Shown here piece by piece: positions 33 through 11,413 of a stretch of DNA of 11,550 nt (positions within the stretch are counted from its first letter, which is position 1; each line of letters opens with the position of its first letter). This stretch comes from Anaerolineaceae bacterium UBA700 (GTDB lineage: Bacteria; Chloroflexota; Anaerolineae; Anaerolineales; Anaerolineaceae): contig DBMK01000064.1 in NCBI GenBank assembly GCA_002298885.1, positions 1 to 11,550 of the forward strand, read 5' to 3'. A program made the position numbers and the translations under genes. The notes under the pieces were generated by a model. It was not told the DNA's origin. It worked only from the letters and a program-made list of their open reading frames with translations, and ran no database searches.

Positions 33-3000
33 TCAACAGGCGAACGGAACTTCGGTGAGTGGCGAGGTACGCAGGATGCGGTGCTGGCCCAGCTCATTGC
101 TGAGCGGGTCGCCCTCGGGTTGGAAATCGCGGCTGAGGTTCAACTGCGCCAACTGCTGCCGCGCCGCGCCGGCTTCAGGCAGCGTGGCCATTTGGACGTT
201 ATTGCGCAGGCCGGCGTTTACGGCGGCATTGCCCAGGCCGGGCACGGCCTCGAAGATATTGGTGATCGTCGGCAGAATTTCAACCACCAGCACGCTGAGC
301 GGCGAATCGGGCGGCAGCCCATACAGCGCCAGCAGTTGTTCTACCTCGTCGTTGCTCCACGCCGTGGTGCCGTACCTGGTGGCATCCCGGGCGATGCTGG
401 AATAATCGACCAGTTTGAACACATGCTGGAACTTGCCGTAGCTTATCTCATCCTTCCAGGTCTTGATGGTGATGCTCTTCAGCAACTGGCGCTGTTGGTC
501 GTCATAGCGCAGCAACCAGTTTACCTGGCGGTCAGTCTCCACCTGCACCCGCCAGTCCATGCGCTTGTCGTCCAGCAGAATGTTGCGGAAATCCTGGTTG
601 TCGGCCTGTTTCACCTGGGCGTACAGCAGGGCCCACAGCTCGGTGCGCGGCGGGTCGGACGTCACGTTCTTGCCGTTGAACACGGCCACGGCATAAGGCG
701 CCGAGACGTACAGGATGTCTGTATCCCGGTTGACGCTGCAGGTCAGCGCAGGCGCCGGGTGCTGCACGCCTGTGGCGCGCAGCGGCCGGCCGAACCTGCC
801 CTGGGCGGTGCACCAGGCCATCTCCTGGGTATCCTTGTTGCGGTAATGCCCCACCCTGAACTCGTAAGTAAAGAATCCGAACATCTCGGCGGAACTCGAA
901 TTCAAGCCGGGGGGAATGGGAAGCAGATAATGCCGGTCGGAGTCCGCGGCCTTCTGCATTGGCTGCATTGCGTTGAGGCCCGCCAGGTCGTTGGTGGCGC
1001 CGGGCGGAATGACCCGGATCAACTCGGGATCGATCGGCAGCGCCGGCTCCTGGGGCGCAATCAACAGGTCAGGCTCGTTGTTGCTGAGCAACTGGTCGGG
1101 CATATTGGCCAGCACCCGGGCGAAATAGGCGTCGTCCGGGTCCAGCGCTGGCTGGGTAAACTCGATCCACAGGTAGCGCTGGCGGGGCTGGGTGGCGGAA
1201 TACTTTGTATTACGCTGGTATGGTGAAAGGGCGATCCCTGCTGAGGCGATCTGCGGGATCTGGGCCGGGGGCGTGGTGATCGGCAGGCTGGTGGTGAGCG
1301 ATTTCTTGCCATCGTTTTGGGCGGCATAGCCCGGCTTGAAGTTCGTCACGATCGAATAGCTCAATTCGATCGTGTCCGGGAAGCGCGGTTGGGTGCTGTT
1401 CGGCGGCGGCTGCATGAGCTGGTTCTTGGGCTCCACCGCGTCGATGAAGATCATGCGGGTGTAATCGCGCTGTGGGTCCTGCAGCGCTTCGAACGAAGCC
1501 GTGTGCCGGATTTCCAGCGTCCCCACCTCCTCGGTAAACGTTTCAGTGGCGGGGTCATCGTGGGTGAAGCGCATGCTGCGCGTGATCACGAAGCTGCGGT
1601 CGGCTAGGGCGTCCCAGGTCCAATCCCGGTTCAGGTCCAGCTCGATGCAGCACAGCCAGTGGTTCACCAGGTCGCCCTTTGTAGAGAAGGTCAGCGAGCT
1701 GCCTTCCGGGGACAGCGAGTGCCGGATGCGGTTCGAGCAGCCGAAAAGCAGGCGCTCGCCGGCTTGCGCGGTCAGGGTTAGCCCGTTATTCACCACCTTG
1801 AGCTGGATCGCCAGCCGCTGGACGATGTCCGGGACGAACTCCGCCTGCTGGCCGATCAACAAGGTCATGACGTTCCCGTTGAACACGCTGGGCGGGTCGG
1901 GCTGCAAATAGATGCCCTGCAGCTCGTCTGCTGCGGCGGCGCCGATGAACAGCCCGGTCTCGTCCTGAGAGGGGCTGAGACACTGCACCTGGACAATCTG
2001 CCCAAATCGCACGTCCAGGTTCTGATCCGCATTCAATTCGCCGTAATAATCGGTGTTGCTCGCCTTATCCTCGCACACCGCCCGGACCGTCAACCGGATG
2101 GTGCGCGCCGAAGGCACATAGATCTCGGCCAGCTTATCGATGTCGTCCGGCAGGTTCAGGTCGTTCTTCAGGTCCATCTCGGCTCCAACGTGCAACACGG
2201 GACAATCGCGGTAGATGATGGGCAAATTGAGTGTAGCGTCGTAATCGCCCTCATTGTTAACCGCCGGGAAGGAGCGGAAGGTGGTGTATAGCAGCACGTA
2301 ATTTTCCGTTCCGGATGCGCTCAGCAGGTTGTCCATGCGCAGTGTCTGTACCTCGACAGTGACCTGCACCCGGTTGACGTCCGGATCGGAAATGCCGAAT
2401 GCCTCTTTACCCACCATCGCCTGCGAGGCGTTCTTCAAGAGGGTAATCGGGTCGGCATATTTATCTGTGTAAACCACCGCCGGGTATCCCAGCAGCGGCC
2501 TTTGGATGGATAGCGAATTGAGGGTCGAAACGGCGTCGGTATTGACCGGCAGGTTGGCAATGCGCACCTGGTTCGGCGCCACGTAGCGTTCAAAGCGCAC
2601 CCTTGCCACGTCTGCCGGCGAGTCGTTGATCGGCTTGACCGTCGGGCTCAGCATCGGGCCGCCGCCGCTCATATCCTGCAGGCGTATCCTGAACTGGTAT
2701 TCTCCGCCGTAGCGCAGTACGGTATTGAGATGTCCGGCGGCGTACACCTTGTTCATCTGGTTTTGGGCCGGGCCACTGGCTCCGGTTCCGGTCATCTTGT
2801 TGGGATACTCCGGGTCGGCCGGGTCCTGCTGGGAAACGGGGATCAGCGTTTCGGGGTCAGCTTTGACGTTGGCATTGGTGGTCTGGTAGATTTCGGCCGC
2901 ATCGTTGTCCGGCAGCACCACGTTGTGGCCGTTCCAATTGGCGAAGTACATCGGCAGCCAATAATTCTTGCTCTGGTCGCCGTCCAACTGGGCCGGGTAC

Positions 3001-4265
3001 ACCTGGTAGGGCAGCTCCAGGGCGCTGTCCCTGGGCGCAAAAACAATCGGCTGTCCGGGAGGGTTGGCTACCGCCAGGTCCTGTTTGGCGCTCACCTCGT
3101 TGGACGATTCCCACGGGTTAGCGGCGTTGGCCGCATCGCGCACGTCCACGGCATAACCGAACACGCCGAGAGGCGCATCCAGGCGCTTGTCCGGGTTGGT
3201 CACGGTCGGGTCGATGGACATCTGGCGCATGTACCAGATCAGGATCTGCTCGTCGTCCCATCCCAGGCGCACGCCGACGTCCCTCAACGGGTGGGCGCCG
3301 TCATTCTCTTCGGAGAGCAAATTTTGGCTGGGCGGCTGCTGGGCGTGCACGATCTTGGCAAAGCCGTCGTCGTATTCGGCTGTCTCGATGAAGACCTGGT
3401 CGTAATTTCCATCTGGCGCCGGGTCGGGGTCAGAGGCCTTGGCCTTGAACAGCACCGGGAAGAGCAGTGGCGCAAAAACCTGGCGAGGCTGGGTGAGCGC
3501 CGGGATGCGCGCTGCATATTTCTTGATAAAGGTATCATCGGCCTGCTCCTGGGCGGCGTAATCGCTGCCCTCAGCCAGGTCAACGTACAGCCAGCCTCCC
3601 AGGGGGTAATCCGCCGGGTTGATCGTTACGGTGGTCTGGTAGAGCATGCCCAATTGGGCCGCCAGCAGCGGCTGGCGCAGGGCGTAAGCAAAGACCTTGC
3701 CCCAACTGATGGCGTTGGGGCTGCGCTTGAACCCCGGCACCTTGCCTGCATCGCGCACGGCGCATTGATAGCTGTCGTCGGTGGTGGCATTCGGCGTGCG
3801 CGGCGCGGTGAAATTGAAGGCGCTGCGATAGCTGACCGGCAGGTATTTCTTGACCGAGAGGTTAACCGCTACGGCCGGGTTCTTCTGGGCAGTATCCAGG
3901 TTATTGTCCAGGTCCTCATTTGTCTGGTTCAAATTACTGATGCTGAAATTCTTGGCCAGGGCTGTGAACAGGTTGCGCGCCTGCGCCGGCTGGCTTGTGG
4001 TCAGCGAGCGGCTGGCGTTCGCTAGCAGGGTGTTCGGGTAGCGGCTCAGCCCGGTGATAATCTTGGCCTCAAATGCAAGCTTGGCGTCGGCAAAGGCCGG
4101 AGCGTCCGGGATGACCGGCGGCGGAAAAGTGACCCCGTCATGCAGGATGATAGCGCCCTGCAGCGGGTTCTGGTTGCGCGGCAGGACCAGGATGTTTAGG
4201 GTCAGCTTATTGCCGTCAAAGTACTGCGGAAAAGTAAGCAGCGAAAATCTGCGGTTTGTTTCCAT
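33..4265 (-). CDS. Giant beta-rich protein of unknown function, 1410 aa (second gene of operon)
   Basis: I do not recognise a named family. The frame is open for 1410 codons, from an ATG preceded by GAGG at a 6-nt spacing to a TGA. There is no signal peptide and no clear membrane helix. Visible in order: an N-terminal segment with the motif RFSLLTFPQYFDG followed by hydrophobic strands (about 6-45); a Pro-rich linker (about 45-56); a helical, Ala-rich stretch (55-105); a segment with MYFANWNGHNVVLPDND (439-455); a fibronectin-III-like segment with YQFRIRLQDMSGGGP (523-537); a long beta-rich middle; Pro-rich linkers (951-965, 995-1004); and a C-terminal block (about 1006-1260) dense in aromatic and charged residues, with YLWIEF (1031-1036), FGFFTYEFRVGH (1129-1140), QGRFGRPLRATGVQHPAP (1155-1172) and DFRNILLDDKR (1225-1235). 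The C-terminus has RILRTSPLTEVP (1397-1408). No catalytic motif or P-loop was seen. It sits 10 bases behind the 1791-aa gene, so the products probably act together. The C-terminal block looks strongly constrained and resembles hypothetical proteins I have seen in other phyla; this is memory, not a search. A structural or binding role is inference. Confidence 0.93.
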   Translation of the reverse strand: METNRRFSLLTFPQYFDGNKLTLNILVLPRNQNPLQGAIILHDGVTFPPPVIPDAPAFADAKLAFEAKIITGLSRYPNTLLANASRSLTTSQPAQARNLFTALAKNFSISNLNQTNEDLDNNLDTAQKNPAVAVNLSVKKYLPVSYRSAFNFTAPRTPNATTDDSYQCAVRDAGKVPGFKRSPNAISWGKVFAYALRQPLLAAQLGMLYQTTVTINPADYPLGGWLYVDLAEGSDYAAQEQADDTFIKKYAARIPALTQPRQVFAPLLFPVLFKAKASDPDPAPDGNYDQVFIETAEYDDGFAKIVHAQQPPSQNLLSEENDGAHPLRDVGVRLGWDDEQILIWYMRQMSIDPTVTNPDKRLDAPLGVFGYAVDVRDAANAANPWESSNEVSAKQDLAVANPPGQPIVFAPRDSALELPYQVYPAQLDGDQSKNYWLPMYFANWNGHNVVLPDNDAAEIYQTTNANVKADPETLIPVSQQDPADPEYPNKMTGTGASGPAQNQMNKVYAAGHLNTVLRYGGEYQFRIRLQDMSGGGPMLSPTVKPINDSPADVARVRFERYVAPNQVRIANLPVNTDAVSTLNSLSIQRPLLGYPAVVYTDKYADPITLLKNASQAMVGKEAFGISDPDVNRVQVTVEVQTLRMDNLLSASGTENYVLLYTTFRSFPAVNNEGDYDATLNLPIIYRDCPVLHVGAEMDLKNDLNLPDDIDKLAEIYVPSARTIRLTVRAVCEDKASNTDYYGELNADQNLDVRFGQIVQVQCLSPSQDETGLFIGAAAADELQGIYLQPDPPSVFNGNVMTLLIGQQAEFVPDIVQRLAIQLKVVNNGLTLTAQAGERLLFGCSNRIRHSLSPEGSSLTFSTKGDLVNHWLCCIELDLNRDWTWDALADRSFVITRSMRFTHDDPATETFTEEVGTLEIRHTASFEALQDPQRDYTRMIFIDAVEPKNQLMQPPPNSTQPRFPDTIELSYSIVTNFKPGYAAQNDGKKSLTTSLPITTPPAQIPQIASAGIALSPYQRNTKYSATQPRQRYLWIEFTQPALDPDDAYFARVLANMPDQLLSNNEPDLLIAPQEPALPIDPELIRVIPPGATNDLAGLNAMQPMQKAADSDRHYLLPIPPGLNSSSAEMFGFFTYEFRVGHYRNKDTQEMAWCTAQGRFGRPLRATGVQHPAPALTCSVNRDTDILYVSAPYAVAVFNGKNVTSDPPRTELWALLYAQVKQADNQDFRNILLDDKRMDWRVQVETDRQVNWLLRYDDQQRQLLKSITIKTWKDEISYGKFQHVFKLVDYSSIARDATRYGTTAWSNDEVEQLLALYGLPPDSPLSVLVVEILPTITNIFEAVPGLGNAAVNAGLRNNVQMATLPEAGAARQQLAQLNLSRDFQPEGDPLSNELGQHRILRTSPLTEVPFAC

Positions 4266-4271
4266 GGATAG

Positions 4272-4277
4272 CCTCTT
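4272..4277 (-). promoter_or_regulatory. Shine-Dalgarno of the 1410-aa gene, overlapping upstream stop codon
   Basis: On the minus strand the sequence reads TAAGAGGCTATCCATG. AAGAGG begins within the TAA stop of the 1791-aa gene and lies six bases from the ATG. A ribosome finishing the first gene sits on the second gene's binding site, which argues for translational coupling and near-stoichiometric production of the two proteins. It also supports this ATG as the start. Confidence 0.75.
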
Positions 4278-7200
4278 ACGCGATCTGTCTCGATTCTTCC
4301 CAGGATGTGCTGAAACTGATATCGATCACCAGGAAGATGCTGATGTCGAGCCCAAACGTCACCTGGGCCGCCAGGTCGGTGCGGTCGTTCTGGCGTGAAA
4401 TCGTTCCCTTGGCCTCGATCGTAATCGTCACGCCCACCAGGCCGCCCAAAAGCTCGGCCTGCCCCTGGAACAGCATGAATCCGGACACGGTCAGCGTGTT
4501 GGTAGCGATGAAGATCTCAACCCCAACCATGTACAGCACACTGACGTTGCCGACGACCGGCAGGCCGACCACGATCTGGGCGCCAAAGCCGAATTTCATC
4601 TTCAAGGAGGGCCCAATCTTGGTATCGGCGGCAATATCCAGGTTCACCTGGCCCACGGCGTATATCGTGGCAATCGAGAGCGACACGCACATGACTGAAA
4701 GCCGGCCATAAAAGCCGAGGTAGCCTCCGGCCGAGGGCAGCAACTGGCTGGGATCGGTGGTGATCTTGAGGGCAGCATTGAAATAAGCCCCCAGCTTGAG
4801 CCCGGCTTCGAGCTTGAGCGGCGCATTCGGATCGTTGTACAGGAAATCAGGGGTGGGGAACTTGACCACCGGGATTTCCTTGGAGGCTTCAAACTTGTAT
4901 TCCCAGGAATTGTCCTGGTTGCTCATCGCCAGCTTGAGGCCGCTGGCAAAGGCGTCCTTATAGTCTCCAGTCTGCAAGTCCTGCAGGATTTGCAGGATCT
5001 CGATCACCGGTTTCAATTCCGACGCGAATTCGATCTGCGGAGAGGGGAATTCTGGATCGCTGTCGCTACCGGCATACGCCGTTTCAGATCCATTTTGAGC
5101 ATTCCAATTGCCCTTGATCGTCATCAGGCGCTGGATGGGTCCCAGGTCGACCACCAGGGCCACGTCATTCATAATGCTCTTCCAGCGGTCTGCCACGTTA
5201 TTAGCGAACGAATCTACGTCGAAATCGAGGAGTCCTTTCACTGTCTCCGTGCCGCCGTTCACCTTCTGGATGTTCGAAGCAATGTATTCAATATAGATCT
5301 TGAATGCGCCGCCAACTTCGATCAACGTCCAGGAAGTGTTGGGCAGGCTGAACCCCGGAGGTCCCTGCTTGAGCAGCTTGTATCCTTCCTGGACGACGTT
5401 GCTGACCGTCTTGTTAATCTGCATCAGCTCGAGCACCTGTTTGCCCCCGTCGGTGAGCGCATTTTGATTGAACTCGTTGCCGTTGGCGTACAGGCTGATG
5501 GCATCGCCGATGTTGCTCTCCGCATCGCCGATATTGGGAAAGATCGCCTTGGAATTGACGATACGGAAGGCGTCCACGAACAAGGGCGGTGTCTTGCTCA
5601 TCAGCTTGGGGATTTCGTTGGGCGGCGCTCCAGCCATCAATTTGTAAGCCGGGGTCAGGAACAAAGCTTTTTGGGTATCTGTGCTGTGCAAATAGCCGTA
5701 ATTCAACGTGTCCGGTACGGGCGGGCGCAGCAGTTCGGTCGGATTGGCAATGCGTAACAGGTTCTTAGCCACGTTGGGGTCCGGCACCAGGTCCACTTTC
5801 TGGGTGGTGGGGTTCAATTGCACCACCTTGTAACTCAGCGCCCCGCTGCGGATGAGCGGCACAGGGAGCTGTTCCGGCAGGGGGACTACCTCGCCCGTGT
5901 CGCGCCGGTGTTGCACCATACTCCACGAGCCATCCTTAGGCAGGATAACGTTGCCCCGGGCAGCGGCGGCAAAGACAATGTCCGTCCCATTTGCCCCAAA
6001 GGAGTTGCTGATATCGAAGCGGCTGACGCGCATCTGCTGCCCGTTCTGGCCGATGTCGACGATACAGTTGACCGGACCACCGATCGGGTCGGGCTGGTAG
6101 TTGAGCAGCGCCTGGTAGGCCTCCTTGGATAGAGGTATGCCGCGCGGCGCAAGCTGGACGAAACCCATCACTCCTTTGGAGGGCACGCGTCCGTTGACCT
6201 GGCCCTGCACCACGCCTTCGATCTCCACATCGGCGTCGAAGAACACCATTTGCAGCAGTGCATCAACGGTCATATCAGGACCGGTATTTAGAATGGTGAA
6301 ATTATTGTCGTCCAGGTAATATTCGCCGGTATGGATGATCGATTTGGCGGCAAACTGGTTGTTTGCCTCGACGATGTTCTGGACGTTGAACAATCCATTG
6401 ATCACGCCAGGGTGGACCTGGTAATCAGGGAACAGGCCGATCGTATTGGGATTGCTGGTTGGATATTTGACGTAATAAGAAAAATCGAACTTGCCGTCGC
6501 TCTCGGCCTTCCAGCCCGTATCTACACGGTATTCGTACCCGCTCAAAGCGCGGTAGAGGATGATGGTGCGCACCACATGGATGCCCCAGGGATAGATGAT
6601 GCTCTTAACCTGGATCACCTCGTGCGCCGTGCGCCCGACCCACACATCGAACTTGGCCTGGCTCGTCTGGGCCATCTGGGCCAGCGGGTTGAACCAGTTG
6701 CTGAAGATACTGGCGCCGTACCCGGAGAAATCGACCCGGGTGAGGGGCACGCCCCGGCTGGTCAGCGGGTCTGGCTTGAGCTTAAACTCGTCGTTGAAGA
6801 TGATGGTGACACTTTGTCCCAGCGTGCTGGCGCCGGTGGGGTTGCCAAACAGGTCCAACACATTATTGATCTGGGATGTAGCACCGGTGAACATGGGGTA
6901 ATCGTCGGTGGGCAGCTTGCCAGCGTTGAACTGAAGCTGCAAGCCGCCTTTCAGGTTGTTATCGAACGCCGGCTGGTTGAATTGGATGGTCGGCGGCTGC
7001 TGCGGGTATATGAACTTGGTCAGGGTCGCCAGGGCGCGCATCCCGAACGGTAGGGTAAACAGCGACGAAGTGATATTCAGCGGCTGGTTCTTGTATTCCT
7101 CGAGGATGAACTTGCTCAACGGGATAGGTGCCAGGGGCACAAACTTGATGCTGTTGTTGAAGATGCGGGTCGGGCCGCCGTCGTCCGGGTAATAATTGGG

Positions 7201-9651
7201 GGTCAGGGCGGGAAGCTGGCCGGGTAAAAAGCCCGGCGGATCACCCGGCAGGAAGTGCGGCGCAGTGTTGATCACCGGCTCCCAGGAGATTTCCGGCACG
7301 GTGAAGGCCCTGACGTTTGCGCCGCTGCTGACCACATCCATGCCTTGGACCTGCAGCGGGAAAGTAGTCGGCGTATTGGCAACCCCAAACGTGCGCACCA
7401 AAGCCAGGCGTTCGGCGCCGAACACGTTGAAACTAATCCCCAGCAGGTCAGCATTGGTGGAGACGTCCAACAGGGCAAACAGGTCCTGCTGCAAGCATTG
7501 GGTCTGCTCGTCCCAAACACCCTGGTAATCCGGCAGGCCGCCATTGCCAATGCCCGACTCGGAAATAAAGGCCGCTTCAGGGGTCATCGCCGGTTGGGCA
7601 ACCGTTCCGGCAGCCTCCTTCGGCGGACTGTAATTGTTGAGGGGGTTCAGCAACGCGTCGCACACCGGCGGCTGCACCACGGCTGCATCCGTTGTCCCCA
7701 CTGCAGCCGACATTTGGGAGCCCGCCGCCGGCGCCTGCAATAACTGGAACGGGTTCTGAAGTGGCGCAAAATAGAAGGCTACGGCTACTTTATCATTGCC
7801 CTCTGTGCCCGGCGCCCAGCGCAACTCACACACCAGCCACATCCAGACGAATTGCCCGCCGAAAGCAGTTGTGCTGGTCAGGTTGTTCCGGTCGCCGCGG
7901 AACTGGAACCTGAGGAAACCCAGGTCGGCAGCGTACGGGTCCGGCAGGGTGGGCAGATAGGCGAACAGCCCAAAGATCAGGAACAAAAATCCACGTTCCA
8001 CCTTCACAAAGTCGTCGGCTAGGCGGCCGAACAGCAGGCAGCCGTTTACCGGGGTAACCTTGAACAGCGCATTATCCAGCGCCAGGGCGATCGGCTGCGG
8101 GATGACCGGCGGCTTCACGTTCAGGTTGGTGTTGTCGAAAAGGATGTTGTCGTCGAACAGGTAGATCAGCTTTAAAGTCTTGCTGACCGCCAGAATGAGG
8201 ACCGAGTTCTTCGACTGCACCGCCACCGGCTGCCCGGAAACCGTTACCGGGCGGTCGATTTGGGCGCTGGCGTTGGCCAGGGTCATCAAGGCCTCAAAGC
8301 CGCTGGCAAGTGTCTCGAAGAGAAAGAAGGTCGCTGCCGGGTATTGGAGCTGGATGCTGCTGACAAAGGGGTTGGATGCATCTTTCCACAGGTCGAATTT
8401 CTGCTGGCAGAAAATATTACCGGCTGCGGCGTCGATTATGAAGATACTGCCGGGCTCTACGATCAGCCAGGGCCGGAGCAAATTGAAGGTACCGCCTTTC
8501 AAACCGCTCCAGGCGGCGGTCAATCCTGGGTCGCAGTTCACCGCCATGCCCCCGATCCCGGCTGCCGGCGTTGGATGGAGCACATCGATGGCAGCCACCG
8601 GCAGTTCCCAGGCGCTTGCAGTCACCGGAGCTTTTCCTTGAAGCATGTTGAAAGGAGACTGGCTATCCGTTACTTCAAAACTGGCCGGGGAGCAGCCGAA
8701 GATGACCAATATCTTCTGCAGGGCCGCATTGTAGACCGGTTGGGCTTGCTTGTGCCACTGGAACGACGACTGTTGGCCATATACCTTCCACTGGGCGTCC
8801 GAAACCAGGTCCAGCGTCGTGCCACCTTGCCCGGAAAATTGGAAGTTGAACTGCTGCGGAAGCTGCAGTTGGGCGTTGCGGGCATCGATCCCGTACGGGC
8901 TGGACGGGTCCACCCCCTGTACGGCGGGCTGCTGTAACTGGAGCCGCACGCTGACGGTGGTGGTGGGTGAGATGGTGAGCTTGCCGCCGACCAGTTGCGG
9001 CGTGGCGCTCAGGGTGATTGTGCCGCCCTTGATTGTTAACCCGGTGAAGGTGGAGGCCGGCGCAGCGGAAGCTAACAGCCGGGAATTGATCCAGATGCTG
9101 CCCGCCGGAAGCTGGTAGACCGGGAGCAGGTCGGTCACCGGCGGCAGGGTGAGTTCGGTAAAGATGAAACGTGTACGCACGTTGAATAGCAGCACCGGGT
9201 CCGGGCTGCCCTGCACGTAAAGCGCCACCAGCTTTTCGATGCGAAAGAAATCGAACCAGAACTGGCGGCCGTCCTTGTTGGTGAACGGGCCGATGGTGTG
9301 GTCCAGCGCCGCTCCGCTGGCCCACTGGGGCACCGAGGCATGCAGCAGCGGATTGCGCACCGGCACCTCGCGCACAAATACGCGCAACTCCGGCTCGCTG
9401 GCCGCCGCTGATTGCATCTCGGCAACCGACTGGAGCGCAGCCAGCCTTTCCGGCGCAACCCGCTCGCTGGAAAAGAGGTCCGAAGCTTCAAACACGAAAT
9501 TGCTGCTTTTAAGCTGTCGAAGATCCTCGGGCAGCAAGGAACGGGATAAGGATTGGTTTAGCTGTTGAATTTCTGCTTCTTGTTGGGGGGTACCGGTTAC
9601 GAGATGGCCTGAAAGCCTGCTGAGTACAGCGTGCAACTGTTTTGCATCCAT
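4276..9651 (-). CDS. Giant beta-rich protein of unknown function, 1791 aa (first gene of operon)
   Basis: No named family is recognised. The open frame runs 1791 codons from ATG, with AGGAG four bases upstream, to TAA. No signal peptide: residues 1-95 look like amphipathic helices rich in Gln, Leu and Ser. From about 100 it is beta-rich, with RQFWFDFFRIEKLVALYV (129-146) and LPAGSIWINSRLL (181-193) followed by short Thr/Ser/Gly strands (200-240). A hydrophobic stretch GFLFLIFGLFAYLPTL (554-569) is the only internal candidate for membrane contact. A Pro/Ala linker lies around 640-700. A dense aromatic block spans about 970-1100 (FSGYGASIFSNWFNP 975-989; VGRTAHEVIQVKSIIYPWGI 1005-1024; VHPGVI 1079-1084). 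A seven-residue tandem duplication NIGDAES/NIGDAIS is at 1373-1386. A helical part (about 1403-1590) precedes a C-terminal region (1610-1791) of alternating hydrophobic strands rich in Gly and Val. No enzyme signature was seen. It heads a two-gene unit with the 1410-aa protein. A large structural, surface or assembly protein is the simplest inference. Confidence 0.93.
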   Translation of the reverse strand: MDAKQLHAVLSRLSGHLVTGTPQQEAEIQQLNQSLSRSLLPEDLRQLKSSNFVFEASDLFSSERVAPERLAALQSVAEMQSAAASEPELRVFVREVPVRNPLLHASVPQWASGAALDHTIGPFTNKDGRQFWFDFFRIEKLVALYVQGSPDPVLLFNVRTRFIFTELTLPPVTDLLPVYQLPAGSIWINSRLLASAAPASTFTGLTIKGGTITLSATPQLVGGKLTISPTTTVSVRLQLQQPAVQGVDPSSPYGIDARNAQLQLPQQFNFQFSGQGGTTLDLVSDAQWKVYGQQSSFQWHKQAQPVYNAALQKILVIFGCSPASFEVTDSQSPFNMLQGKAPVTASAWELPVAAIDVLHPTPAAGIGGMAVNCDPGLTAAWSGLKGGTFNLLRPWLIVEPGSIFIIDAAAGNIFCQQKFDLWKDASNPFVSSIQLQYPAATFFLFETLASGFEALMTLANASAQIDRPVTVSGQPVAVQSKNSVLILAVSKTLKLIYLFDDNILFDNTNLNVKPPVIPQPIALALDNALFKVTPVNGCLLFGRLADDFVKVERGFLFLIFGLFAYLPTLPDPYAADLGFLRFQFRGDRNNLTSTTAFGGQFVWMWLVCELRWAPGTEGNDKVAVAFYFAPLQNPFQLLQAPAAGSQMSAAVGTTDAAVVQPPVCDALLNPLNNYSPPKEAAGTVAQPAMTPEAAFISESGIGNGGLPDYQGVWDEQTQCLQQDLFALLDVSTNADLLGISFNVFGAERLALVRTFGVANTPTTFPLQVQGMDVVSSGANVRAFTVPEISWEPVINTAPHFLPGDPPGFLPGQLPALTPNYYPDDGGPTRIFNNSIKFVPLAPIPLSKFILEEYKNQPLNITSSLFTLPFGMRALATLTKFIYPQQPPTIQFNQPAFDNNLKGGLQLQFNAGKLPTDDYPMFTGATSQINNVLDLFGNPTGASTLGQSVTIIFNDEFKLKPDPLTSRGVPLTRVDFSGYGASIFSNWFNPLAQMAQTSQAKFDVWVGRTAHEVIQVKSIIYPWGIHVVRTIILYRALSGYEYRVDTGWKAESDGKFDFSYYVKYPTSNPNTIGLFPDYQVHPGVINGLFNVQNIVEANNQFAAKSIIHTGEYYLDDNNFTILNTGPDMTVDALLQMVFFDADVEIEGVVQGQVNGRVPSKGVMGFVQLAPRGIPLSKEAYQALLNYQPDPIGGPVNCIVDIGQNGQQMRVSRFDISNSFGANGTDIVFAAAARGNVILPKDGSWSMVQHRRDTGEVVPLPEQLPVPLIRSGALSYKVVQLNPTTQKVDLVPDPNVAKNLLRIANPTELLRPPVPDTLNYGYLHSTDTQKALFLTPAYKLMAGAPPNEIPKLMSKTPPLFVDAFRIVNSKAIFPNIGDAESNIGDAISLYANGNEFNQNALTDGGKQVLELMQINKTVSNVVQEGYKLLKQGPPGFSLPNTSWTLIEVGGAFKIYIEYIASNIQKVNGGTETVKGLLDFDVDSFANNVADRWKSIMNDVALVVDLGPIQRLMTIKGNWNAQNGSETAYAGSDSDPEFPSPQIEFASELKPVIEILQILQDLQTGDYKDAFASGLKLAMSNQDNSWEYKFEASKEIPVVKFPTPDFLYNDPNAPLKLEAGLKLGAYFNAALKITTDPSQLLPSAGGYLGFYGRLSVMCVSLSIATIYAVGQVNLDIAADTKIGPSLKMKFGFGAQIVVGLPVVGNVSVLYMVGVEIFIATNTLTVSGFMLFQGQAELLGGLVGVTITIEAKGTISRQNDRTDLAAQVTFGLDISIFLVIDISFSTSWEESRQIA

Positions 9652-9655
9652 AAAG

Positions 9656-9660
9656 CTCCT
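9656..9660 (-). promoter_or_regulatory. Shine-Dalgarno of the 1791-aa gene
   Basis: The minus strand reads TCAGGAGCTTTATG: a good AGGAG, but with only four bases before the ATG, shorter than usual. No in-frame start with a better site was seen upstream in the AT-rich leader, so this ATG is preferred. Confidence 0.65.
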
Positions 9661-9934: not shown

Positions 9935-11413
9935 ATGAACGCAAAACAACGCCTGCCGCACCTGATATTGTACGTGGCATTCTTTGCCCTGGCCTGTGGA
10001 ATGCTGCCCCCGGCGGTCGTGAACGCCGCCGACCCGCTGACCGTGAACACCCTGGCAGACGAAAGCGACGGCAGTTGCAGCGACGGCGACTGCTCGCTGC
10101 GCGACGCGATTGCCCTGGCGCCAGCCGGCAGCGCCATCCAATTCGCCGTCAGCGGAGTCATGACGGTCAATTCCACTCTGACTATCAATAAGAGCCTCAC
10201 CCTCAGCGGCCCCGGCGCCGACAAGCTGACGCTGGACGGCCATAACGCCATCCAGATCGTGCGGGTGAGCGCCGAAACATCGGGGACGGTCAACATATCC
10301 GGATTGACTTTTATCAATGCCAACTCCGGAGGCTGGGCGGGAGGCGCCATTTGGAACTTCAATATCCTCGAAGGCGGACCAACCTTAAACGTGAGCAACT
10401 GCGCCTTTCGCAACAACCATTCCTCGAACGTCGGCGGCGGCATTTCTTCGGGGGGTGTGTTGAACGTGAGCGGCAGCACCTTCGAGGGCAACACGGCTGG
10501 CGATGGGGGCGCAATCGAAGTCACTTTCCATCCCTTGAGTGTGATTGACTCGCGGTTTACGAACAACCAGGCCAACGAGGATGGCGGCGCGATCTATGCG
10601 GACGGCAACGGCACCCAAATCAAGGTCATGATCGATGAATCAGCCTTCACCTCAAACAGCGCCGTGCGCGAAGGCGGGGCAATCCGCCTCTACTATGACC
10701 TTACGGCTGCAATCTCGCATTCGGCCTTTTTCAATAACACGGCCAACAACGCCGTAACCAGCACAGAAGGAAGCGGCGGCGCTATCAACAGCGAAGCGCC
10801 GTTCACGCTCGATTCCAGCGTGTTCGCCGGTAATACCGCCGGCAGCGCAACAACAGCCAACAATACCGGCGGCGCGGTTCGCACTGACGCGGTGCTTAAC
10901 GTCACCAATACAACCTTCTACAATAACCGGGCACGCGCCGGGGGCGGAGCGCTGCATTTCGACAGCGGGGCGGCGGGCAGCACGATCACGAATTCGACCA
11001 TCTACGGAAATTTCCTCTTCGGGCCGGGTGCAGGAGGCGGATTATACAACAACCCGGCGGTGACGGTGACGAACAGTATCATCGCCGGCAACACGCCTTA
11101 CATCGACTGCAGCGGCGCGGCGCTCAGCAGCGCCAGCAAGAACAACCTGACCACGGACGCCGACTGCCAGCCGGGTTTCAGCGTGACCACAACGGGTGCA
11201 TTAAACCTGCAATGGATGCGCGCCTACCTGCTGCCGAGAACAGGCAGCCCGGCCATCGATAGCGGTGATAATGCAGCCTGCCCTGCGCTCGACCAGCGCG
11301 GCTGGACCCGCCCGCTGGACGGGGACAAGAACGGCGTGGCGACGTGCGACATTGGGGCTATTGAAGCAACCGCGTTTTTCGGAGAGATTTTTGTTCCGAC
11401 CGTCGTACGGTAG
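9935..11413 (+). CDS. Secreted parallel beta-helix protein with CSLREA-like motif and choice-of-anchor Q C-terminus
   Basis: Predicted extracellular or surface protein of 492 aa. The ATG has GGAG six bases upstream. A signal peptide covers about residues 1-31 (basic KQR, hydrophobic LILYVAFFALACGM, cleavage after VNA). C21 in ALAC is a poor lipobox, so a lipoprotein is less likely. Residues 35-60 match the CSLREA-type motif of secreted proteins (LTVNTLADESDG, then C48 and CSLRDAI at 53-59). From about 100 to 400 come roughly ten beta-helix coils with GGA[IV] and FxxN signatures, for example GGAIWNF, FEGNTAGDGGAIEV, FTNNQANEDGGAIYA and FYNNRARAGGGALHF, as in polymorphic outer membrane protein (Pmp)-like and pectate-lyase-fold proteins. 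The C-terminus (about 380-477) has the 'choice-of-anchor Q' pattern: NSIIAGN, SPAIDSGD (438-445), DQRG (453-456), CDIGAIE (471-477). It ends in FVPTVVR. No catalytic Asp/Arg cluster of a polysaccharide lyase is evident, so an adhesin or cell-wall role is as likely as an enzyme. It is divergent from the giant-protein operon. Family architecture is known; exact function is not. Confidence 0.95.
   Translation: MNAKQRLPHLILYVAFFALACGMLPPAVVNAADPLTVNTLADESDGSCSDGDCSLRDAIALAPAGSAIQFAVSGVMTVNSTLTINKSLTLSGPGADKLTLDGHNAIQIVRVSAETSGTVNISGLTFINANSGGWAGGAIWNFNILEGGPTLNVSNCAFRNNHSSNVGGGISSGGVLNVSGSTFEGNTAGDGGAIEVTFHPLSVIDSRFTNNQANEDGGAIYADGNGTQIKVMIDESAFTSNSAVREGGAIRLYYDLTAAISHSAFFNNTANNAVTSTEGSGGAINSEAPFTLDSSVFAGNTAGSATTANNTGGAVRTDAVLNVTNTTFYNNRARAGGGALHFDSGAAGSTITNSTIYGNFLFGPGAGGGLYNNPAVTVTNSIIAGNTPYIDCSGAALSSASKNNLTTDADCQPGFSVTTTGALNLQWMRAYLLPRTGSPAIDSGDNAACPALDQRGWTRPLDGDKNGVATCDIGAIEATAFFGEIFVPTVVR

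Follow-up and report, generated by a model that had tools for sequence, protein, structure and literature searches.

A conserved two-gene unit encoding the giant proteins P1 and P2 in Anaerolineaceae bacterium UBA700 and other bacteria

Two adjacent genes from Anaerolineaceae bacterium UBA700 encode giant proteins, designated as P1 and P2, which belong to none of the described families tested. They were found in the window, that is, the whole analyzed stretch of 11,550 nucleotides (contig DBMK01000064.1). Both are under strong purifying selection. The novelty concerns the protein family and the gene unit, while the functional role discussed below is a proposal based on sequence.

The P1-P2 unit and its relatives

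Both open reading frames are intact, start with ATG and lie on the minus strand: P1 at 4276-9651 (1791 aa) and P2, downstream of it, at 33-4265 (1410 aa), together about 3,200 residues. The gap between them is 10 bases (4266-4275), and the sequence at the P1 stop includes GCGTAAGAGGCTATCCATGG. AGGAG is located 4 bases 5' of the P1 ATG, and the AAGAGG of P2 has two bases in common with the P1 TAA stop, both read directly. The two intact giant frames, the 10-base spacing and the Shine-Dalgarno over the stop codon, all described in the first-pass annotation, were found on re-reading as stated there. The features of the unit are as follows.

9656-9660, minus strand: Shine-Dalgarno of P1, AGGAG (read directly)
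4276-9651, minus strand: P1, 1791 aa, first gene of the unit (open reading frame, homologues, and 61 near-complete open homologues in genome loci)
7732-9651, minus strand: P1 N-terminal part, about residues 1-640 (conservation profile and alignment)
7552-7731, minus strand: P1 variable linker, about residues 641-700 (conservation 0.13-0.19)
4909-7551, minus strand: P1 middle part, about residues 701-1581, predicted to be beta-rich, with the motif HEVIQVKSIIYPWGIHVVRTI (AlphaFold and conservation)
4285-4908, minus strand: P1 C-terminal antiparallel beta-barrel-like domain, residues 1582-1789, predicted
4272-4277, minus strand: Shine-Dalgarno of P2, AAGAGG, overlapping the P1 TAA stop (read directly)
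33-4265, minus strand: P2, 1410 aa, second gene of the unit (open reading frame, homologues, and location immediately after P1 in 71 of the 74 loci)
762-4265, minus strand: P2 residues 1-1168, predicted to be beta-rich, with Ig/FnIII-like sandwich modules (AlphaFold and fold searches)
93-257, minus strand: P2 variable linker, about residues 1337-1391 (conservation 0.16-0.22)
36-92, minus strand: P2 C-terminal tail LGQHRILRTSPLTEVPFAC (motif present in all 62 locus tails examined and, as a regular expression, in 236 of the 240 P2 proteins listed)

The AlphaFold models covered P1 from residue 700 onwards and residues 1-1168 of P2. P1 and P2 have computed pI values of 4.96 and 4.88, respectively. 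Signal peptides were judged from the positions of hydrophobic windows and from alignments of N termini. No N-terminal signal stretch was found in either protein, as had been noted earlier: the five most hydrophobic windows of P1 and those of P2 are all far from the N terminus, and no hydrophobic core was found at the N termini in the P1 or P2 homologue alignments.

Pfam and NCBIfam contained no family matching P1 or P2 at E ≤ 1, enzyme families included, in agreement with the earlier statement that named domains are lacking. No match was obtained at E ≤ 0.1 in PHROGs for six proteins of the pair, or in PADLOC-DB 2.0.0 for three P1 and three P2 proteins. A PDB sequence search returned nothing for P2 and one chance-level line for P1 (E 0.58), and PDB profile searches with both were empty at E ≤ 5. 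When every member of the two alignments was compared with Pfam, the matches remained at chance level, in at most 2 of 15 members for P1 (best E 0.11) and with eight families, each in 1 of 16 members, for P2 (best E 0.028). A relationship between P1 and P2 themselves was rejected (hhalign probability 0.2%). Among open-licence PubMed Central papers, judged by title, no described system like P1-P2 was found. The first-pass annotation had proposed the pair as an undescribed system, and this proposal stands: P1 and P2 lie outside every family library searched, with no match to a characterised family in Pfam, NCBIfam, PDB, PHROGs or PADLOC.

Relatives were abundant. Among about 5.8 billion proteins searched, 748 relatives of P1 and 1515 of P2 were found at E ≤ 0.001 (from 7990 and 7994 scored candidates, with a listing of the 120 best for each protein). 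Query coverage was 99-100% in the best 120 of each, with the exception of one P2 at 88%, and all of these are either named hypothetical protein or unnamed. A search from a second, diverged P2 of Paraflavitalea revealed 658 relatives, and one of the 120 listed is named Ig-like domain-containing in UniRef. These numbers, the near-full coverage of the listed relatives and the low dN/dS described below exclude chance open reading frames.

Window positions 9935-11413 on the plus strand encode a divergent 492-aa protein with a CSLREA N-terminal region, Chlamydia-type POMP repeats and a choice-of-anchor Q domain. It is probably secreted and is outside the P1-P2 pair.

Distribution, selection and neighbouring genes

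Genomes were scanned with two conserved P1 peptides, and the resulting count of at least 74 loci, 39-67% identical in the best segment, is therefore not exhaustive. P2 is the next same-strand gene after P1 in 71 of the 74 (69 by open frames; L030 and L073 by tblastn), while in L034, L050 and L069 the contig ends within or just past P1, leaving the order untestable. The order P1-P2 is the same in every locus long enough to tell. Homologues that are usually unlinked, which the first-pass annotation had named as a counter-sign, did not occur.

Both genes are near-complete in 56 loci, whose record titles indicate seven phyla: Bacteroidota (44), Chlorobiota (5), Ignavibacteriota (2), Pseudomonadota (2), and Acidobacteriota, Chloroflexota and Planctomycetota (one each). 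One partial locus is titled Desulfobulbaceae. The spacing between the genes in the 56 complete open pairs, counted to the start of the tblastn match and thus slightly overstated, is 9-94 bases in 52 pairs, and 182, 212, 277 and 764 bases in the others. Both genes also occur on three large plasmids, at about 30-38% identity, and a partial match to P2 was found on a fourth.

The pair is patchy, being present in 1-7% of the surveyed genomes. P1 and P2 were each found in 3 of 301 genomes from the phylum of G001, in 7 and 8 of 147 from the family of G008, and each in 13 of 196 from the family of G463; each group takes in its seed genome, and first-look candidates were incompletely scored in some genomes. 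Twenty-five genomes have either gene and 22 of them have both, some on separate contig pieces. The three exceptions are G554, in which a contig edge cuts P1, G385, with a match of 69 residues, and G622, with one frame that matches parts of both. The G622 frame (L094:8313-10232; 639 aa) matches the first 41 residues of P1 and the last approximately 600 of P2, with a PAS-LuxR gene still upstream, and is apparently a deletion derivative of the pair.

Several loci depart from the usual arrangement. A Paraflavitalea genome carries, besides the usual pair, a second pair about 30% identical to it (L093:59-8505), in which the genes overlap by 4 bases; thus, two subfamilies coexist within one cell. In the complete genome of Maribacter halichondriae (L061:10001-19829), P1 and P2 are each split into two open frames, and the pair appears to be decaying or to contain record errors. 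In the Tistrella mobilis plasmid pTM1 (L077:10198-18570), the annotated P1 is 1230 aa and the similarity is lost near its end, about 1 kb before P2, so the P1 frame is probably broken.

The dN/dS values (Nei-Gojobori) were 0.046-0.109 for P1 in seven pairs and 0.035-0.129 for P2 in six; dS was saturated in two further P1 and three further P2 pairs, and one of the ten named pairs was outside the set. The selection that had been deduced from the intact frames alone is thus confirmed by values of 0.035-0.129 wherever dS is unsaturated. The P1 and P2 trees mirror each other across 57 rows (r 0.955; permutation maximum 0.16), which is partly due to linkage, as linkage alone would give mirroring too. 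Phylum labels change 8 times on the tree, against a least possible number of 6, on a quick tree with long branches in which several loci are metagenome bins; this mixing fits some transfer of the pair.

Neighbouring genes were collected as 152 frames of 100-1300 aa, at most two per side of 45 named loci, and 127 were scanned after 25 were dropped. Clustering of the flanking frames revealed no family recurring across phyla, and only local synteny, mostly in related genera. The commonest Pfam family among the 127 neighbours was the LuxR helix-turn-helix, with eight (25 of 173 families listed). In ten loci (L004, L005, L009, L014, L019, L035, L044, L056, L058 and L060), a regulator of about 230 aa is encoded on the same strand, 20-184 bases upstream of the longest P1 frame, and seven of the 127 neighbours are copies of it. 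Eight of the ten were scanned together at E ≤ 0.01, and each had a LuxR domain as well as some match to PAS, which exceeded the curated cut-off in six of the eight; the L056 regulator, scanned at E ≤ 1e-4, showed LuxR only. Nine of the ten loci belong to an 11-row Bacteroidota group near the branch of the window. The position of the PAS-LuxR gene just upstream suggests that the complex is probably made on demand in that group. PAS-containing kinases or PAS proteins were also found near the pair in L017, L030, L074 and a Microvirga plasmid.

PADLOC families matched at most 2 of the 127 neighbours each and were scattered, and thus no defence-island signal was seen; a defence role gained little or no support. 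Tail-type genes (sheath, tube or baseplate) were not recurrent among the 127, including all families matched by at least three of them, and no recurrent export gene beside the pair was seen in the neighbour scans. No neighbour hints at a ligand. Two unrelated plasmids carry katG and a catalase gene only a few kb from the pair (L075:9324-11498 and L077:20341-22461). A link to catalases found no support: none was seen among the neighbours scanned at other loci, where those of similar size were FeoB, a TonB receptor, polysaccharide lyase 8, methionyl-tRNA synthetase and further proteins, and the proximity is perhaps a coincidence. In a Kiloniellales bin, an 882-aa open frame with no Pfam match lies just downstream of the pair (L030:19384-22032).

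The modules and the C-terminal tail of P2

The sandwich modules of P2 are predictions: the FnIII/Ig-like similarity came from fold searches of the predicted model, and no Pfam FnIII or Ig match was found in P2. The lack of such a match and of a visible export signal, the full-length architecture fixed across the listed relatives and the unique tail at the C terminus distinguish P2 from tandem FnIII/Ig-module proteins such as fibronectin, receptor ectodomains and phage tail-tip proteins.

The fold searches also touch on a role as a phage-tail-like or injection-related component, the latter having been suggested in the first-pass annotation. The P2 modules gave weak, generic matches to the tail-tip proteins of T5, DT57C and lambda, and P1 gave matches to tail proteins in BFVD that are likewise generic and of low probability. 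However, no relative of P2 was found among 50,697 phage records, the P1 profile has none in viral contigs, PHROGs gave no match, and no sheath, tube or baseplate gene recurs beside the pair. Such a role is very improbable.

The RILRTS...C tail is a hallmark of P2. The pattern RILRTSxLxxV...C is kept even between subfamilies that are about 32% identical. Of the 120 listed window-type P2 proteins, 119 carry the motif R-[ILMVF]-x-R-[TASN]-S-x-L, as do 117 of 120 from the second search, and Cys follows it in all 236 motif-bearing proteins. The single exception in the first set is shorter and seems to be truncated, and the three in the second are one-letter variants by eye. A similar expression fits all 62 locus tails, these being the ones that match past residue 1390. 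In many homologues the tail Cys is followed by an extension forming CxxC (CCPTC, CCTDC), while the window P2 ends at the first Cys (36-38); the extension suggests a putative metal or thiol role.

A profile of the tail recognized P2 in 31 of 31 pair-bearing genomes (E 9.4e-8 or better). No other protein of these genomes carried it: the single extra match below 0.01 was to the diverged P2 of the second pair, and weaker lines, at E 0.057-1, were attributed to chance. Convincing tail matches are limited to P2s in all 31 genomes, and thus the tail is not a sorting signal common to other proteins. Encapsulin cargo peptides are conserved C-terminal targeting or docking peptides, and P2 resembles them in having a short, strongly kept tail behind a variable linker, but differs in the restriction of this tail to P2s.

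The C-terminal domain of P1 and the proposed complex

The C-terminal domain of P1 is modelled with the up-and-down arrangement of an antiparallel barrel. The porin-like matches of this model are moderate (rmsd about 7), and the pLDDT of its ten-residue blocks is 54-87. The predicted domain resembles CymA and OmpG as an antiparallel up-and-down amphipathic barrel of similar size. It differs from them in that P1 has no signal stretch and no terminal aromatic residue, has tight turns at most strand ends, has a conserved rather than variable hydrophobic face, and has about 1550 further residues attached. The top Foldseek line for P1 was SlpA (8agd; E 1.4e-5, prob 0.54), another long beta-rich protein that carries a barrel. 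The TM-score is only 0.08 with 8% identity, and SlpA is an outer-membrane protein by title (8ae1). SlpA is exported.

The conservation of the barrel is the reverse of that of an outer-membrane receptor barrel. In the nine strands counted, the mean entropy is 0.59 bits on the hydrophobic face and 1.25 on the polar face (Mann-Whitney p 6e-7), with the hydrophobic face less variable in 8 of 9; strand 1701-1715 runs against the trend. A tenth strand, 1582-1598, outside this count, is weakly amphipathic in the same direction. In fourteen strands of the middle part of P1, the trend is faint (10 of 14; 1.26 vs 1.33 bits). The yardstick was one family, TonB receptors from 16 of the same loci, analyzed from residue 231 to the end with a structure-free test. 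Their hydrophobic face was less variable in 7 of 18 windows (1.15 vs 1.00 bits), or in 8 of 25 at a looser threshold, while P1 in the same test gave 9 of 10 for 15 such loci (0.31 vs 0.59) and 8 of 10 for all 67 rows. In membrane barrels, according to a published survey (PMC3206045), lipid-facing residues are less conserved than those of the interior. By this rule, and by comparison with the TonB receptors, the P1 barrel does not behave as a lipid-embedded one would.

Outer-membrane proteins typically have a terminal aromatic residue on the last strand. At least 111 of the 120 P1 homologues listed share the ending W-x-E-x-RQIA, which has no terminal aromatic. The reversed faces, the lack of a signal stretch and the lack of a terminal aromatic are together taken to indicate that the domain is soluble and that its hydrophobic core or cavity is conserved. 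The conserved hydrophobic face fits an inward orientation, deduced from conservation alone. The barrel was found in no other protein of the 31 genomes; one line at E 0.08, with stops, was taken as chance.

The same observations bear on an envelope or surface system, in which P1 would be an outer-membrane-anchored giant and P2 a surface fibre of FnIII/Ig modules, both of them exported non-classically. The porin-like model, the weak similarity to SlpA, the Ig/FnIII-like modules and the titles of most loci, which name phyla possessing an outer membrane, are consistent with it. Against it stand the RQIA end, the reversed face conservation, the lack of an N-terminal hydrophobic stretch in the window proteins, the lack of a recurrent export gene beside the pair, and the occurrence in Chloroflexota, which are expected to lack a typical outer membrane. 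This system is improbable, and the large surface role considered in the first-pass annotation is disfavoured by the missing signal stretch and the reversed barrel.

A latent pore would make use of the same strands differently. P1 would be stored in soluble form with P2 as a partner or cap, and upon a trigger the amphipathic C-terminal strands would form a membrane channel, directed against the own cell or, when released by lysis, against neighbours. The strongly amphipathic strands (hydrophobic face KD 2.1-3.1 in 8 of 9), the porin-like model, the absence of an N-terminal signal stretch in both proteins, the patchy distribution and the regulator upstream in one group all fit this explanation; however, the more conserved hydrophobic face is the reverse of the membrane-barrel pattern, no PADLOC model matched at E ≤ 0.1, and neighbours matching PADLOC models are dispersed, no family accounting for more than 2 of the 127. 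It is considered rather unlikely. Similarly doubtful is a stand-alone intracellular scaffold, in which the pair would assemble into a large particle or filament and the hydrophobic face would be a packing core between sheets with nothing bound. This is compatible with the great size and full-length conservation among the listed relatives, with the confinement of barrel and tail to the pair in the 31 genomes, and with the lack of an enzyme family, whereas the C-terminal sheet curves as in a porin, which points to a closed barrel and away from flat packing.

The reading preferred here, as a tentative one, is an intracellular P1-P2 complex with a hydrophobic-cored barrel and an engaged tail. The two genes, which are close together and probably coupled, would yield P1 and P2 in the same cell, and the two proteins would form one soluble intracellular complex. 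The C-terminal tail of P2 would dock on P1, and the hydrophobic interior of the P1 barrel would hold either this tail or an oily ligand. We infer the binding of P1 to P2, the docking role of the tail, the inward hydrophobic face and the binding of a hydrophobic ligand from sequence features, and the barrel fold and the sandwich modules are predicted from models. The last residues of P1 are not kept in diverged pairs and thus point to no partner site for the tail. As correlated steps, it is nearly certain that P1 and P2 are a functional pair, quite probable that they form a physical complex, and likely that they are intracellular. Of the two-component assemblies suggested in the first-pass annotation, the intracellular one fits best, while the surface one is disfavoured and the injection-related one has generic fold matches only, no PHROGs match and no recurrent tail-type neighbours. 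A bolder version is unlikely as a whole: the two-gene module of at least seven phyla would be a soluble megacomplex whose inside-out, porin-sized barrel carries lipid or oily cargo in the cytosol, with the RILRTS...C tail as a plug or release latch.

A pair under strong selection in distant phyla, yet outside the searched libraries, exposes a clear gap in what is described of bacterial cells. Its tail motif and its barrel are two handles that make two hypothetical proteins testable, through binding via the tail and through the content of the barrel.
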